Shown: in pieces, positions 7,098 to 26,158 of the stretch
How positions within the stretch are numbered: the stretch's first letter is position 1
Layout: each line of letters starts with the position of its first letter
NCBI GenBank assembly: GCA_903843965.1
Contig: CAIMRY010000017.1
Coordinates: forward strand, 62,001-126,000
DNA: 64,000 bases
Source of the DNA: an uncultured delta proteobacterium
GTDB lineage: Bacteria; Desulfobacterota; Desulfovibrionia; Desulfovibrionales; Desulfovibrionaceae
Direction: 5' to 3'
The notes under the pieces: generated by a model
Told to the model about the DNA's origin: nothing
The model's input: only the letters and a program-made list of their open reading frames with translations
The model's database searches: none
Translations under genes and position numbers: made by a program

Positions 7098-10000
7098 TCA
7101 GTCCACGATCTTCAAATCGAACGCGGCGATGGAGTAGATCACCGGGACCATGAGCAGGGTCACGAAGGTGGCCACGGTGAGCCCGCCGATCTGGGCGTAG
7201 CACAAAGGCTCCCACAGCGGCCCGCCGTGCAGGGCCAGGGGCACCAGGGCGAAGACCGTGGCGGCCACGGTGATCATCACCGGCCGCAAGCGCATGATGC
7301 CCGCGTCCAGGATGGCCATGCGCAGGTCGTCGCCTGCGGCCCTGCGCTCCTCGATGAAGTCGAAGAGCACGATGATGTGGCTAACGATGACGCCCATGAG
7401 GCTGACGATGCCGAGATAGGCCATGAACCCGAAGGGCGCGCCCGCAATGTACAGCGAGCCGAAGGCCCCGGCCATGCCGTAGGGCACGGCGGCAAAGACG
7501 ATGAGCGGCTTGACCGCGTTCTTGAACTGGAACAGCAGCGCCAGGTAGATGGACAGGATGGACACGCCCATGACCATGCCCATCTCGCCGAAGCCCTTGG
7601 TCTGCTCCTCGTACTCCCCGCCGATCTCCAGCCGGTAGCCCGGCGGCAGCTGCTTTTTGAAGGCCTCAAGCTGCGGGGAGATGCCCTGGATGACCTCACT
7701 GGAAAGCACGCCCGGAGCGGTGAAGCAGGACACGGTGATGGTGCGGAAGTGGTTGCGCCGGGCGATCTTCTCCGTCTCAAGCCCCCAGGACACGCTGGAG
7801 ATCTGCCCCAGGGGCACCTTGCCCGCGCCGTCGGCGGAGCTGACGTAGAGGTTCTTGATGTCCTCCATGCCCGCGCGCTCCTCCATGCGCAGCCGGGCGA
7901 ACACCGGCACCTCGATGCGGCCCTGGCGCAGGCTCGTCAGCAGAAAGCCGTTCATGGCCGCTGCCGAGGACCGCGCCACGTCCTGGTTGGTCACCCCGGC
8001 GAGCGCGGCCTTGTCCGGGTCGATCTTGAGGTGCGCGCGGAAGATCTCCGCGCCCCAGTTGTCCTGCACGCGGTCCGTGTCCGGGCGGGCCCGCAGGATG
8101 CCCTTGAGCGTCTCGGACTGGGCGCGCAGGGTCGGCATGTCGTCGCCCGAGAGCCGCAGCTGCACCGGGATGCCGACCGGCGGGCCGCTTTCCAGCCTGC
8201 GGGCGCTGGCCCGCACCCCGGGCATGGCCGCGGTGAGCCGGGGCTGCAGGAAGTCCATGAAGCCCTCGGTGTCGTGCACGTCGCTCACCTCCAGCAAAAT
8301 CTGGGCGTAGTTGGGCTGGCCCAGCTCCGGCGTGACGGAGAACCAGAAGCGCGGGCCCCCGGCGCCGATGAAGGCCGTCATGGACTTGATGATTTTATGC
8401 TCCGGGCCGCCGCTCTTCGGGTGCTCCCTGGCGTACTGGGCCGCGGCCTCGGCGATGAGCCCGTCGGCCTTGCGCGCCGCCTGGTCCGTGGCCGCCACCG
8501 AGGCGTCCTCCGGCAGCCAAAGGTCCACGTAGGCCAGGTGCGAGAGGTCGTAGGGGAAGAACTGGTCCTTGAGCTGGGACTTCATGACAAAGGCCACGGC
8601 CACGATGACCAGGGAGACGCCAAGCGCCTTCCAGCGGTGGTCGATGAGCGCGCTGGCCAGGCGGTAGTAGCGCCCTGTGAAGCCCTGGCCGCGCAGGTCG
8701 GCCACGCTCTTGCCCGCGTTGTGGCCGGGCCGCAGCAGGTACTGGGCGATGAACGGGATGAAGGTCATGGACACGATGCGCGAGGCCACCAGCGAACAGC
8801 CGATGACCACCGGCAGCGAGTACAGGAAGCGGCCCTTGTCGCCGGAGAGCAGCAGGTACGGCAGGTAGGCCACGATGTTGGTGATGGTGGCGTAGAGGAT
8901 GGCCTTGGCCAGCTTGGTGGGCCCCAGCCAGGCCGCCACGTCAAAGGGCTTGCCCGCGCGCAGCTCCAGCTTGATGGCGTCGTTGGCCACCACGGGGTCG
9001 TCCACCAAAAGCCCCAGGGCCAGGATCAGCGCGGCTATGGAGATCTGCTGGATGTCGATGCCGAGCAGATTCATCATGCCGAAGGTCATGGCCAGGGTGA
9101 TGGGGATGGACAGGGCCATGAGCAGGGCCGAGCGCCATTCGCGGAAGCCCACGAAGGACACCAGCACCACCAGGATGATGGCCTCGTACAGGCTGGTCAT
9201 GAACAGATCGACCTTGTCCTCCACCTGCTGCGGCTGGTCCGAGGTGCGCGAGAGCACGAGGTCGGCCGGGAGGCGCTTTTTCAGGCCGTCCAGGGTCTGG
9301 TCCACGGCCTTGGAAAAGTCGCCGATCTGCTCTCCGCTTTTCATGGTGATGGCGAGCGTCACGGCGGGCATGCGCGCCCAGCCGCCCTTGGCGTCGCGCA
9401 CCACGTGGTGGTGGAGCTTGCTCGGCGGGCTCAAGTAGCCACGCTCGATGTCGACCATGTCGCGCAGATAGGCCAGGGAGCCGTTCCTGGCGCGGCCCAC
9501 GGCCACCCCGCCCAGCTCGTCCTCGCTGGTGATCTCGCCCGAGGGGTCCACGAGCATGGACTTGCCTGCGGCCTCGACCACGCCGCCGCCCTGGCGGATG
9601 TTCCGCGCGGCCAACACGCCTTTGATCTGCACCGGGCCGATGCCGTACGCCGCCAGGCGCTCCTGGGAATAGTTCAGGTACACGGCCTCGTCGCGCACGC
9701 CCCAGCGGTTCACGCGGGAGACCACAGGCAGGGCCTGCAGGGTGCGCATGATCTCGTCGGTGTAGGCCTCCAGGTCGCGGAAGCCGTAGCGGCTGCCCGC
9801 CACCGGGGCCAGGGCCTGGGCCGTCTGGGCCGGGTCGCGCACGATGGCCACGGGCCAGGCGTCGGGGTGAAACTCCGAGGCCCGCAAACGCTCCTCGATG
9901 AACCGCCGCACCACGGCCTGGAGCTCGTCGTCGCTGGCAATCGTGCGCACGTCGAGCAGGGCCAGGCCCGGGGTGATGCTCGTGCGCACGTCGCTGGCCA

Positions 10001-12671: not shown

Positions 12672-12686
12672 TTTGCCAGGTGTCAA
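12664..12686 (-). promoter_or_regulatory. Promoter of the tetR-adaptor-RND operon
   Basis: On the minus strand a perfect -35 TTGACA (12681-12686) is followed after 14 bases by TATTAA, or after 17 bases by TAAACG. Neither -10 is ideal, but the -35 is consensus and the palindrome would cover the -10, fitting repression. Confidence 0.45.
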
Positions 12687-12794
12687 GCCCACAGGGCTTG
12701 GTCGCGTGCGAATACTTTCAGGTCCGGGTTGTCGGCTTGTCAGAGTGCTGGCGGGTGGGGTAGGATGCCAAAAAACGACCCGAGCGAGGATTCC

Positions 12795-14240
12795 ATGCCC
12801 TACAAGGACTTGCAGGATTTTCTGAAGCATTTGGACCAGAATGGCGAGATCAGGCGCATCGACGCCGAGCTCGACCCCTACCTTGAGATTGCCGAGGTGA
12901 CCGACCGCGTGAGCAAGAAGTTCGGCCCGGCCCTGCTCTTCCAAAAGGTCAAGGGCTCAAAGTTCCCGGTCTTGACCAACATGTACGGCTCGTACAAGCG
13001 CATGAACATGGCGCTCGACAGCGAGAACCTGGACGAACTGGGCGAGCGCATCCACGAGTACCTGGAGATCGAGCGGCCCGACGGCATCATCAAGAAGCTG
13101 CAGATGATCCCCAAGCTCTCCAAGCTGACCAACATCTTCCCGGACCACGTGAAGCGCGGCTGCTGCCAGGACGTGGTGCTCACCGGCGACGAGGTCGACC
13201 TGTCCATCCTGCCGGTTTTGACCACCTGGCCGGGCGATGCCGGGCCGTTCATCACCCTGCCCGTGGTTTACACCAAGAACCCGGAGACCGGCGTGCGCAA
13301 CGCGGGCATGTACCGCATGCAGGTGTACGACAAGAACACCACAGGCATGCACTGGCACCGGCACAAGGGCGGGGCCTACCACTACCACCTGGCCGAGAAG
13401 CTGGGTCAGCGCCTGGAAGTTGCCGTGGCCATCGGCCCGGACCCGGCCGTGACCTACGCCGCCACCGCGCCCATCCCGGACGAGATCGACGAGATGCTCT
13501 TCGCAGGCTTTTTGCGCAACAAGCCGGTGGAGCTGGTCAAGTGCAAAACAGTCGACCTCGAAGTGCCCGCCACCAGCCAGTTCGTGCTGGAGGGCTACGT
13601 GGACCCAGGGGAGCGCCGCCGCGAGGGGCCCTTTGGCGACCACACCGGCTACTATTCCCTGGCCGACGACTACCCGGTGTTCCACGTCACGGCCATCACC
13701 CACCGAAACGACGCCATCTACCCGGCGACGCTGGTCGGGCCTCCTCCGATGGAGGACTGCTTCATCGGCAAGGCCACCGAGCGCCTGTTTTTGCCGCTGA
13801 TCAAGAAGCAGCTGCCCGAGGTGGTGGACATGAACCTGCCCTTGGAGGGCGTGTTCCACAACCTCTGCTTCGTCTCTATCGACAAGCGCTACCCCGGCCA
13901 GGCCCGCAAGGTCATGTATGCCCTGTGGGGCATGGGCCAGATGATGTTCACCAAGATCATCGTGGTGGTGGACAAGAACATCAACGTGCAGAACGTTTCC
14001 GAGGTGCTCTGGCGCATCGGCAACAACGTCGACCCCCGGCGCGACATCGCCATCCTTGAAGGCCCGCTGGACGCCCTGGACCATGCCTCGCCGCTGGCTT
14101 TCTACGGCGGCAAGATGGGCATCGACGCCACCAAGAAGGGCCCGGAGGACGGGCACCACCGGCAGTGGCCCAGCACCCTGCGCATGGACGAGGGCGTCAA
14201 GGCCAAGGTCGACGCCTTGTGGGACAAGCTGGGGCTGTAG
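12795..14240 (+). CDS. UbiD family decarboxylase (probable menaquinone pathway)
   Basis: A 481-residue prenylated-FMN-dependent decarboxylase. Family motifs are intact: DPYLEIAEVTDRV near the N-terminus, the region GMYRMQVYDKNTTGMHWHRHKGGA, the active-site stretch ERRREGPFGDHTGYYS with the conserved Arg/Glu, and PPPMEDCFIGKATERLF. It resembles the UbiD relatives found with the futalosine menaquinone route more than a detoxifying decarboxylase, but this is judged by eye. UbiX, which makes the cofactor, is the next gene. Start chosen at the ATG five bases after GCGAGGA; an earlier in-frame ATG adds ten residues. Confidence 0.88.
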   Translation: MPYKDLQDFLKHLDQNGEIRRIDAELDPYLEIAEVTDRVSKKFGPALLFQKVKGSKFPVLTNMYGSYKRMNMALDSENLDELGERIHEYLEIERPDGIIKKLQMIPKLSKLTNIFPDHVKRGCCQDVVLTGDEVDLSILPVLTTWPGDAGPFITLPVVYTKNPETGVRNAGMYRMQVYDKNTTGMHWHRHKGGAYHYHLAEKLGQRLEVAVAIGPDPAVTYAATAPIPDEIDEMLFAGFLRNKPVELVKCKTVDLEVPATSQFVLEGYVDPGERRREGPFGDHTGYYSLADDYPVFHVTAITHRNDAIYPATLVGPPPMEDCFIGKATERLFLPLIKKQLPEVVDMNLPLEGVFHNLCFVSIDKRYPGQARKVMYALWGMGQMMFTKIIVVVDKNINVQNVSEVLWRIGNNVDPRRDIAILEGPLDALDHASPLAFYGGKMGIDATKKGPEDGHHRQWPSTLRMDEGVKAKVDALWDKLGL

Positions 14241-24461: not shown

Positions 24462-25370
24462 ATGCAATGCGTCACCAGCACCAGCCTCGCCGAATACCCG
24501 CTGCTCTCGCGCGGGAAGGTGCGCGACATCTACGAAACCGGCCCGGACTCCCTGCTCATCGTCACCACGGACCGCATCTCGGCCTTTGACGTGATCATGG
24601 ACGACCCCATCCCGCTCAAGGGTGTGGTCCTGAACCAGATCACCCTGTTCTGGATGGAGAAATTCGCGCACCTGGCGCCCAACCATTTGCTGGCCACGGA
24701 GGTCAAGGACTTTCCCAAGCCCCTGCAGGCCCACGCCGACCTGCTGGAGGGCCGCAGCGTGCTGGTGCGCCGGGCCAAGCCCCTGGCCATCGAGTGCATC
24801 GTGCGCGGCTACATCACCGGCAGCGGCTGGAAGGACTACCAGAAGACCGGCCAGGTCAGCGGGCACACCCTGCCCCAGGGCCTGCGCGAGTCCGACAAGC
24901 TGGCCCAGCCCCTGTTCACGCCGTCCACCAAGGCCGACCTGGGCGAGCACGACGAGAACATCTCCGTGGCCGAGGCCATGCGCATCACCGGGCAGGACCT
25001 GGCCGCAAAGGCCCAGGAGCTGGCGCTGGGCATTTACTCGGCCGGGCGCGACTACGCCAAGGGGCGCGGCATCATCATCGCGGACACCAAGTTCGAGTTC
25101 GGCACGGTCAAGGAAGGCGGGGTCGACCAGCTGATCCTCATCGACGAGGTGCTGACCCCGGACTCCTCGCGCTTCTGGCCCATGAGCGGCTATGCGCCGG
25201 GCCGGGGCCAGCAGAGCTTTGACAAGCAGTTTCTGCGCGACTGGCTGGAGGCGATCGCGTTCAACAAGCGCCCGCCCGCGCCCAAAATTCCGCAGGAGAT
25301 CATCGACCAGACCAGGACCAAGTACCTGGAGGCCTACCGCCTGCTGACCGGGCGCGAGCTCGGCATCTAG
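24462..25370 (+). CDS. purC: SAICAR synthetase
   Basis: A 302-residue ATP-dependent ligase (phosphoribosylaminoimidazole-succinocarboxamide synthase) of purine biosynthesis. It starts with SLAEYPLLSRGKVRDIYE and shows TTDRISAFDVIMDDPIP, the signature LAIECIVRGYITGSGWKDY and IIADTKFEFG. Length matches the ~300-residue subgroup rather than the ~240-residue one. CGGAG is upstream. It lies between hisD and two tiny membrane-protein genes whose first ribosome binding site directly follows the purC stop. Confidence 0.95.
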   Translation: MQCVTSTSLAEYPLLSRGKVRDIYETGPDSLLIVTTDRISAFDVIMDDPIPLKGVVLNQITLFWMEKFAHLAPNHLLATEVKDFPKPLQAHADLLEGRSVLVRRAKPLAIECIVRGYITGSGWKDYQKTGQVSGHTLPQGLRESDKLAQPLFTPSTKADLGEHDENISVAEAMRITGQDLAAKAQELALGIYSAGRDYAKGRGIIIADTKFEFGTVKEGGVDQLILIDEVLTPDSSRFWPMSGYAPGRGQQSFDKQFLRDWLEAIAFNKRPPAPKIPQEIIDQTRTKYLEAYRLLTGRELGI

Positions 25371-25380
25371 AAGGAGCAGT

Positions 25381-25548
25381 ATGGACGCCGTATGGATTCT
25401 ATTGGCCGTGGTGGTGGCCTGGTTCGCCATGAGCCGCCTGATGCCCGGCCTGGGCCGGGGCTGAGGCCCCAAGAAGCAGTGCGGCTGGACGCCGCCCTCC
25501 GCCCCGGAAAAGACAAACCCCGAAGACAAGGACAGCCAGGCCAAGTAA
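25381..25548 (+). CDS. Small membrane protein 1, candidate selenoprotein (in-frame UGA)
   Basis: Starts ten bases after purC behind a perfect AAGGAG. The first 27 codons give one membrane helix (VWILLAVVVAWFAM) and a basic PGLGRG end, then TGA (25462-25464). The same frame continues 27 more codons (GPKKQCGW...PEK...KDSQAK) to a TAA. Read as selenocysteine, the product is 55 residues with Sec28 right after the helix and a Cys six residues later. The neighbour has the same plan, including the tail. A 5-bp hairpin with a bulged U lies 18 bases after the UGA, as in bacterial SECIS elements. I recognise no family. Alternative: a 27-residue peptide ending at the TGA. The recoding is inferred; the frame and hairpin are seen. 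Confidence 0.65.
25481..25495 (+). promoter_or_regulatory. SECIS-like hairpin 1
   Basis: GCGGC-TGGAC-GCCGC directly preceded by an unpaired T (25480) and a further G-C pair. It begins 16 bases after the UGA. A GG in the loop and a bulged U below the upper stem recall the bacterial SelB-binding hairpin. Confidence 0.5.
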
Positions 25549-25578
25549 GCCGGGCCAAGCCAGGCAAAGGCGTACGCC

Positions 25579-25734
25579 ATGTGGGACAACATCCTGTTTC
25601 TGCTCACCCTTGCGGGGGTCGTCGTCGTGTATGTGGGCTTTGTGCTGCCGAAATTCGGCATGCGGGGCTGAATGCCCCAGCCCCCGGACGTCTGGGAGAC
25701 GCCCGAGAAGCCCAAGGATTCCGACAAGGCTTGA
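25579..25734 (+). CDS. Small membrane protein 2, candidate selenoprotein (in-frame UGA)
   Basis: Thirty codons encode one membrane helix (ILFLLTLAGVVVVYVGFVL) followed by PKFGMRG, then TGA (25669-25671), then 20 codons in frame (MPQPPDVWETPEKPKDSDKA) to a final TGA. With selenocysteine at codon 31 the product has 51 residues. It parallels protein 1 before the UGA (P-x-[LF]-G-x-[RG]-G) and after it (W, TP, PEK, KDS). A hairpin stands at the same distance from the UGA. An ATG immediately follows the UGA, so termination with reinitiation is the main alternative. Ribosome site weak (AAAGG). The final stop overlaps the rpsF promoter. No selA/B/C/D genes are in the window. Confidence 0.62.
25689..25701 (+). 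promoter_or_regulatory. SECIS-like hairpin 2
   Basis: CGTCT-GGG-AGACG with a single bulged A below it and two further G-C pairs (GG/CC). The stem starts 17 bases after the UGA, within one base of the equivalent position in hairpin 1, although the two sequences are unrelated. Confidence 0.5.
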
Positions 25735-25759
25735 CAGAGTGCATCTGAGCAAGTAAGAG
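25731..25759 (+). promoter_or_regulatory. Promoter of the rpsF operon
   Basis: Consensus -35 TTGACA, 17-base spacer, -10 TAAGAG. The -35 contains the final stop codon of small membrane protein 2. Confidence 0.55.
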
Positions 25760-25776
25760 CACCCCTCTACCTTGCT

Positions 25777-25804
25777 CTTCCCCTGTGCGGGAAGGGCCAA
25801 AGCC
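25777..25804 (+). promoter_or_regulatory. rpsF leader hairpins
   Basis: CTTCCC-CTGTGC-GGGAAG is followed at once by GGGC-CAAA-GCCC, just before the rpsF ribosome site. Leaders of rpsF are known in many bacteria to bind S6:S18 for autoregulation. The position fits, but I cannot match the conserved binding core. Confidence 0.3.
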
Positions 25805-25819
25805 CAAAAGGAGATTTAC

Positions 25820-26158
25820 ATGCTCAACAACTACGAGACTCTGCTGCTCCTGAGTCCGGAACTGGCGGAAGAAAACCGCAAGGAGATTCTGACGAATCTC
25901 ACCGGGATCATCGAGCGCGACGGGGGGAAACTCACCCTCGTCGATGACTGGGGCATCAAGATTCTGGCCTACCCCGTGCGCAAGCTGACGCGCGGCCATT
26001 ACGTCCGCCTCGAATACCTCGCCCCTGGGGCGCTGGTGGCCGAGCTGGAGCGCAACGTCCGCATCACGGACGGCATCTTCAAGTTCGTCACCGTCCGTCT
26101 GGCCGACGCCGCGCCTGCCGCCGCCGCCGCGCCTGCGCCCGTGACAGAGGAGGCCTAA
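25820..26158 (+). CDS. rpsF: 30S ribosomal protein S6
   Basis: A 112-residue ribosomal protein that pairs with S18 on the platform of the 30S subunit. Typical features: NNYETLLLLSPEL at the start, GGKLTLVDDWGIKILAYPV and KLTRGHYVRLEY. The C-terminus is an Ala/Pro-rich extension (AAPAAAAAPAPVTEEA). AAAAGGAG precedes the ATG. First gene of rpsF-rpsR-rplI-dnaB, a widespread order in bacteria. Confidence 0.97.
   Translation: MLNNYETLLLLSPELAEENRKEILTNLTGIIERDGGKLTLVDDWGIKILAYPVRKLTRGHYVRLEYLAPGALVAELERNVRITDGIFKFVTVRLADAAPAAAAAPAPVTEEA

Follow-up and report, generated by a model that had tools for sequence, protein, structure and literature searches.

A probable family of very short single-pass membrane selenoproteins with a proposed selenocysteine/cysteine redox pair

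Altogether, 119 families and subfamilies of prokaryotic selenoproteins are listed in Table 1 of PMC13188914, according to the accessible part of that source. There, a bacterial SECIS element is described as a hairpin with a loop of 3-9 nt, a stem of 4-16 bp and a G among the first two nucleotides of the loop, which is located 16-37 nt from the UGA and has an energy of -7.5 kcal/mol or lower (PMC13188914, accessible part). Among the families named in the accessible part of Table 1 there is no tiny single-helix membrane protein, and such a family was likewise not found in the accessible parts of PMC5029168, PMC9312934 and PMC1794560. The eukaryotic selenoproteins SELENOK and SELENOS share with the proteins predicted here a single N-terminal membrane helix, an unstructured basic tail and a selenocysteine (Sec, U) located after the helix (PMC10650576, accessible part).

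The window analysed here is a stretch of 64,000 nucleotides from an uncultured delta proteobacterium (contig CAIMRY010000017.1, positions 62,001 to 126,000). It contains two adjacent small reading frames, ORF1 and ORF2, flanked by genes which we take to be purC and rpsF. A preliminary description of this DNA had proposed two short frames with a single membrane helix and an in-frame TGA, each of which stays open for 20-27 codons beyond it, and both were indeed found. ORF1 consists of 27 residues, the TGA and another 27 residues followed by TAA; ORF2 consists of 30 residues, the TGA and 20 residues followed by a second TGA. As in prokaryotic selenoproteins generally, there is an in-frame UGA together with a SECIS-like hairpin and sel genes, and often a Cys partner nearby. 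We propose that ORF1 and ORF2 belong to an undescribed family of single-pass membrane selenoproteins of 44-66 residues with a Sec/Cys redox pair, and we put the probability of this reading, which is derived from sequence comparison, at roughly 0.85. The features of the locus are as follows.

25371..25376, + strand: Shine-Dalgarno-like AAGGAG before ORF1, read directly in the sequence
25381..25548, + strand: ORF1, predicted 55-residue single-pass membrane selenoprotein, MDAVWILLAVVVAWFAMSRLMPGLGRG-U-GPKKQCGWTPPSAPEKTNPEDKDSQAK, stop TAA (from the translation and homologues with TGA)
25384..25440, + strand: predicted membrane helix of ORF1, residues 2-20 (AlphaFold2)
25462..25464, + strand: in-frame TGA of ORF1, read as Sec28 (TGA in 112/112 members read, Cys in one more)
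25480..25482, + strand: TGC codon of Cys34, which we propose as the redox partner of Sec28 (U-x5-C; Cys in 82/88 members)
25481..25495, + strand: SECIS-like hairpin of ORF1, GCGGC-UGGAC-GCCGC, with a stem that begins 16 nt past the UGA and G second in the loop
25579..25734, + strand: ORF2, predicted 51-residue paralogue, MWDNILFLLTLAGVVVVYVGFVLPKFGMRG-U-MPQPPDVWETPEKPKDSDKA, stop TGA (profile match, E=1.9e-7)
25669..25671, + strand: in-frame TGA of ORF2, read with less certainty as Sec31 (intact with TGA in 8/14 genus genomes)
25689..25701, + strand: SECIS-like hairpin of ORF2, CGUCU-GGG-AGACG, whose stem begins 17 nt past the UGA and has a bulged A below it (-3.2 kcal/mol; no significance by itself)
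25731..25736, + strand: TTGACA, -35-like, upstream of the presumed rpsF and overlapping the terminal TGA of ORF2 (present in all 14 genus loci)

A string resembling a Shine-Dalgarno sequence precedes the start in 73/88 family members. A consensus scan of positions 25200-25900 reported no promoter. The leader before the presumed rpsF (25771-25819, CTTGCTCTTCCCC...GGGAAGGGCCAAAG) recurs in those genus loci whose leader was read and, in an altered form, in L023 and L024; an Rfam scan of positions 25300-26000, which includes this leader, gave no match near threshold.

Using ORF1 as query, we found it in 14/15 genomes of the genus, each match with one internal TGA; the sole genome without a match (G012) is 73% complete. 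From the TGA on, the residues are near-identical across the 14 genomes (UGPKKQCGWTPP). For codons +1 to +11 after the TGA, pairwise differences at codon positions 1/2/3 amount to 48/37/94, and for the 11 codons past the terminal stop in the same 14 genomes they amount to 729/715/669. The codons following the TGA, whose conservation had been suggested as a check, are thus kept in the 14 genus genomes and also in more distant relatives. TGC GGC TGG ACG CCG is invariant in all 14 genus members, silent sites included, as an overlapping SECIS predicts. Judged by the relatives, and not by the folds of the window itself, the pattern of ORF1 and ORF2 exceeds chance.

Three profiles were made from ORF1 and its relatives, A1 with 18, A2 with 32 and A3 with 76 sequences, the last without ORF2. 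Within the order, A1 matched 129/348 genomes at E<=0.01 and A3 matched 147/348 genomes from 37/59 genera at E<=1e-4. Among genomes drawn evenly from the phylum, A2 matched 172/395 (44%), belonging to 112/245 genera, at E<=0.005. The E-values of these searches are per genome, so that a few of the weakest rows would be chance matches, L066 being one such. Altogether, 112 members were read as DNA (88 + 2 + 22); the remaining profile rows are represented by the stop count of the search program. Three weak A1 rows without a stop that are not among the sequences read are the second matches in G080 and G328, and G222. Left out of the counts were L066 (Cys-rich, no UGA), L073 (a Cys immediately before the TGA), L074 (TGA, with a Cys before and none after it) and L077 (weak, with TGA). 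Since the family members are interrelated, the counts are not independent events and the totals are not probabilities.

The family proteins have 44-66 residues with a median of 52 (n=88); 26-31 codons precede the UGA in these 88 members and 13-36 residues follow the Sec (n=88). A typical member from the phylum, MSEDLLWLIGIVAVWVLLNKWVLPKMGVST-U-MSPSCEIGDPQKKK, has one helix, the motif P-K/R-L/M-G, then U, a Cys and a basic tail. A match in Undibacterium (L118) was rejected as a chance match that lacks the family motif. Searches with three members gave no match on plasmids, and for the one member searched against viral contigs no relative was found. Several members have features of their own. 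Two loci of genus g204 (L123 and L136) contain a second TGA in frame, followed by DGP-T/S-C-x-IGGQSKK and accompanied by hairpins of -6.0 and -9.6 kcal/mol; these may encode a protein with two Sec, the terminal TGA being the second Sec codon. Two of the 112 sequences read, second family copies in G491 (L165) and G364 (L166), have a Cys ahead of the Sec (C-P-T-U) and the hairpin UCUGCGGGCCGCAGA. The members from genus g8 (L183-L190) have a Q after the Sec and a Cys further on, close to a GGCGG-type end, with a spacing unlike that of other members.

The Sec codon is TGA in 112/112 members read and TAA or TAG in none. No other stop lies ahead of the TGA in the 88 members, and in the rows that were labelled stop-free and then read (12 of A2, 8 of A3) the TGA is located just outside the matched part. 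Terminal stops of the 88 members are mixed (TAG 38, TAA 25, TGA 25). Cysteine homologues, which the preliminary description had suggested looking for, are represented by one clear case: G117 (L059) encodes Cys at the Sec position and its congener G118 has U, so that the Cys form makes up 1/113 members read. The genome of this Cys homologue holds selA, selB, selC and selD, and it therefore shows no Sec-loss event. The preliminary description had also named observations that would speak against Sec. Other stops at this codon are absent from the 112 members read of the ORF1 family, and homologues ending at the TGA were not found for ORF1; L073 in G112 may end there. L073 reads GGGC-TGA, with the TGA directly after a Cys and a tail without the family motif, and it may be a Cys form that truly ends at the TGA. 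Five further genomes of the same genus (g39) match the same part of the profile in the A1 search.

If the UGA were a true stop, the product would be a membrane peptide of 26-31 residues, and the conserved segment behind it would be an untranslated RNA element. Such a one-helix peptide would be a plausible micro-protein, and this explanation could accommodate the conserved silent sites of the hairpin region in the genus, the members that lack the downstream Cys, the possible end of L073 and the unremarkable folds of single sequences. However, a true stop would be expected to change into TAA or TAG over time, like the terminal stops, and none of the 112 did. Moreover, the reading frame past the UGA repeatedly contains Cys (at varying spacing), W and PP, the frame of one member has Cys in place of the UGA and continues, and the hairpin is placed where SECIS elements sit. 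We therefore consider it very improbable that translation ends at this UGA.

For the analysis of the hairpins we searched unbroken stems with the geometry given in the accessible part of PMC13188914; this rule itself demands the early G of the loop. The search found a hairpin of this form, its stem at -4 kcal/mol or lower, in 81/88 members; 7/88 fall short of that. The chance level for such a hairpin is 16.8/88 by dinucleotide shuffles and 24.3/88 by synonymous recoding. A single unbroken stem of -7.5 kcal/mol or better is present in 59/88 members. The hairpin ranks in the best 5% of the member's own recodings in 37/46 of the phylum-search subset and in 47/88 of the whole set. Stem sequences vary widely and include GCGGC/GCCGC, GCUGC/GCAGC and GUAUCGA/UCGAUAC. 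The stem of ORF1 has -8.2 kcal/mol and its hairpin is identical in all 14 genus members; elsewhere the stems differ, again with a G near the start of the loop. The stem of ORF2 has only -3.2 kcal/mol and thus falls short of the SECIS energy limit. Folding of the whole segments in the window gave no significance, with z values of +1.20 for ORF1 and -0.68 for ORF2. The preliminary description had placed the hairpins 16-17 bases past the TGA, which agrees with stems starting at 16 nt (ORF1) and 17 nt (ORF2). The bulged base that it saw below both 5-bp stems is present in ORF2, whereas ORF1 has a plain 5-bp stem. Modelling of the hairpins, a further suggestion, gave folds that are not significant alone in the window and a family-wide excess of 81/88 over the 16.8 expected.

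The genome from which the window comes encodes selC (82.9 bits), selB (388.8), selA (567.9) and selD (319.1), all scoring above the cut-offs. All four genes that the preliminary description had wanted confirmed are thus present. The selD gene of this genome (contig C9:74481-75407) itself contains one in-frame TGA, which is a second line of evidence for the use of Sec. In the phylum, selB presence was defined as a match at E<=1e-75 and was found in 353/395 genomes. The family occurs in 164/353 genomes with selB versus 8/42 without a selB match (Fisher p=0.0008). These eight family-positive genomes all have tRNA-Sec, and their assemblies consist of 40 to 520 contigs. Among 13 family-negative genomes of the phylum without selB that were tested, tRNA-Sec is present in 7 and absent in 6; in the 6 phylum genomes found to be without both selB and tRNA-Sec, the family is absent (0/6). 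Searching 28 genomes without an above-cut-off selB, already negative with A1 or A2, by means of A3 revealed no convincing member and a partial match in G020 (E=0.0084). Since the family was not found in 189/353 selB-containing genomes, it is common and not universal among Sec users. On contig C17 of G356, tRNA-Sec and a family member are located about 5 kb apart (7234-7327 and 12681-12827). G022, which is 95% complete, has a selD match and none above cut-off for selA, selB or tRNA-Sec; it is perhaps using selenium for another purpose.

These data also bear on the question of whether the UGA might be passed by low-rate read-through, or decoded as Trp or Cys by a near-cognate tRNA, which would result in a short and a long form of the protein. 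Conservation of the long frame would be expected here too, and the hairpins of the window are not significant alone. Against this stand the four sel genes in the genome, the tRNA-Sec in all eight family-positive genomes without a selB match, the hairpins that match the bacterial SECIS model across the family and the Cys homologue aligned at the codon. We regard such read-through as hardly credible. The family, its constant TGA, the coding past the TGA, the SECIS-like structure and the machinery are computed results, and the Sec reading of ORF1 is made with high confidence from them.

The similar tails of ORF1 and ORF2, noted at the outset, include a W at 8 residues past the TGA in both. A3, which does not contain ORF2, finds ORF2 at E=1.9e-7, so that the resemblance of the tails is explained by paralogy. 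ORF2 is intact with its TGA in 8/14 genus genomes (L009, L010, L011, L012, L016, L017, L019 and L021). Other stops interrupt it in L018, and in L013, L014, L015, L020 and L022 it is degraded or lost. The ORF2 proteins of L017 and L021 contain U-A-A-C and U-A-S-C, respectively. Hairpins of ORF2 are weak or absent in the genus except in L017, which has a strong one. By these comparisons ORF2 is a paralogue that appears to be decaying in part of the genus. For ORF2 one might go further and see a decaying duplicate without Sec function, the TGA being a relic. The gene is broken or lost in 6/14 genus genomes, the copy in the window has no partner Cys and its hairpin is weak, all of which would fit a relic; yet 8/14 keep an intact frame with TGA and a similar tail, and U-A-A-C in L017, U-A-S-C in L021 and the strong hairpin in L017 would be unexpected. 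We consider a relic possible, if rather doubtful, and a Sec reading of ORF2 likely. The preliminary proposal of membrane selenoproteins of 55 and 51 residues is thus strong for ORF1 and weaker for ORF2, with its intact frame in 8/14 genus genomes and its weak hairpin.

AlphaFold2, run with 8 close sequences, predicted a helix at residues 2-20 of ORF1 followed by a low-confidence tail (mean pLDDT 64.2). The pLDDT per block of ten residues is 86 and 81 at first and 52-54 later. From the hydrophobic residues we infer that the helix spans the membrane. The mean net charge is -0.75 for residues one to six and +3.4 for the stretch that runs from U-12 to the C-terminus. According to the positive-inside rule, the basic side of a membrane helix is expected to be cytosolic. 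The basic residues after the helix therefore suggest that the Sec-bearing tail is probably cytoplasmic.

The claim that one of the two proteins has a Cys near the Sec holds for Cys34 of ORF1. In the family, 82/88 members have a Cys that is separated from the U by 4-8 residues (TGC 69, TGT 13), the usual spacing being U-x4-6-C. The pair of U and C is not universal, since 6/88 have no Cys within ten residues after the U. The nearby Cys (82/88, and C-x-x-U in two second copies) fits, as a hypothesis, a selenenylsulfide redox pair. In the mechanism that we propose, the ribosome would decode the in-frame UGA as selenocysteine, aided by SelA, SelB, SelC and SelD and by a bacterial SECIS hairpin with its loop at 16-25 nt downstream of this codon. 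The Sec tail, flexible in this reading, would then be located on the cytoplasmic side of the membrane, after the basic residues. There, Sec and the nearby Cys would cycle between a selenol/thiol and a selenenylsulfide pair, and the protein might act as a membrane-surface redox shuttle or as a small-molecule reductase. Sec in the protein, its topology and its redox role are inferred from the sequences.

BLASTP clustering of 33 loci from 30 genera, including the window, showed that the gene neighbourhood is not conserved. The largest cluster of neighbours, obtained by single linkage within about 4.5 kb, comprises 11 loci and the next one 5. Ten of the neighbouring genes, judged by eye, include what are presumably gltX, engB and hisG. 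No recurrent partner gene emerged from the 33-locus comparison, and the lack of conserved neighbours over these loci suggests that the protein probably serves a general role.

A selenoprotein could also use its U and Cys to bind a metal or iron-sulfur partner, as a chaperone or anchor, and not as a redox pair. The weak match L066 belongs here: it looks like a Cys-rich single-helix protein similar to the FeoB-associated Cys-rich membrane protein. The U-x4-6-C spacing and the GGCGG-type ends in genus g8 could hold a metal as well. Most members, however, have no ligands besides one U and one C; the homology of L066 is not convincing; and neighbour genes, ten of them judged by eye, recur too little for a metal partner. 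Metal binding is therefore considered unlikely, and we prefer the Sec/Cys redox pair. L066, which matched A1 weakly (E=0.00436), resembles the family in being very short with one helix and a Cys-bearing tail, and differs from it by its several Cys and the missing UGA. The model for the FeoB-associated Cys-rich protein in Pfam/NCBIfam was matched by 0/76 members.

The preliminary description had recognised no described family, and we found no significant match in Pfam, NCBIfam, PHROGs or PDB sequences either. In Pfam/NCBIfam no match at E<0.005 was obtained among 32 and 76 members, and the weak ones include no selenoprotein model. PDB sequences and PHROGs gave nothing convincing, with 1/76 members matching an unnamed PHROG at E=0.0018. 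A literature search, carried out without most subscription papers, found no prior description of the family. Its very small size and the near absence of Cys forms are probably why it has been overlooked. With 26-31 codons ahead of the UGA, the frame is shorter than what gene callers usually accept. Approaches based on Cys/Sec pairs are blind to a nearly Sec-only family, and a family with matches in 44% of the phylum genomes sampled is without a model in the libraries scanned. The finding is larger than that of the preliminary description, namely a family of membrane micro-selenoproteins that is spread across the phylum and uses Sec almost exclusively. This suggests that more Sec-only micro-proteins can be found by profile searches in which the UGA is read through.

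As a broader interpretation, the family might be nearly Sec-obligate, with no Cys replacement, one of the commoner selenoprotein families in the phylum and a bacterial counterpart of SELENOK/SELENOS by convergence or descent, acting as a Sec/Cys redox switch at the inner membrane; we hold this tentatively, at somewhat less than even odds. The comparison with SELENOK and SELENOS, based on the accessible part of PMC10650576, has several sides. The GRG-U-G turn of ORF1 is a likeness to these proteins. As to the segment rich in Gly, Pro and basic residues of SELENOK and SELENOS, the family has a basic tail, and a short G-rich turn is seen in some members but not in others. In SELENOK and SELENOS the Sec is second or third from the end (PMC10650576, accessible part), whereas 27 residues follow the U in ORF1 and 13-36 in the family. 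Unlike SELENOK and SELENOS as described in the same part of that source, the family is bacterial, has a median length of 52 residues and carries a Cys a few residues from the Sec. As far as the accessible part of PMC10650576 allows a comparison, the relation of the family to SELENOK and SELENOS is an analogy in architecture and not membership by sequence homology.
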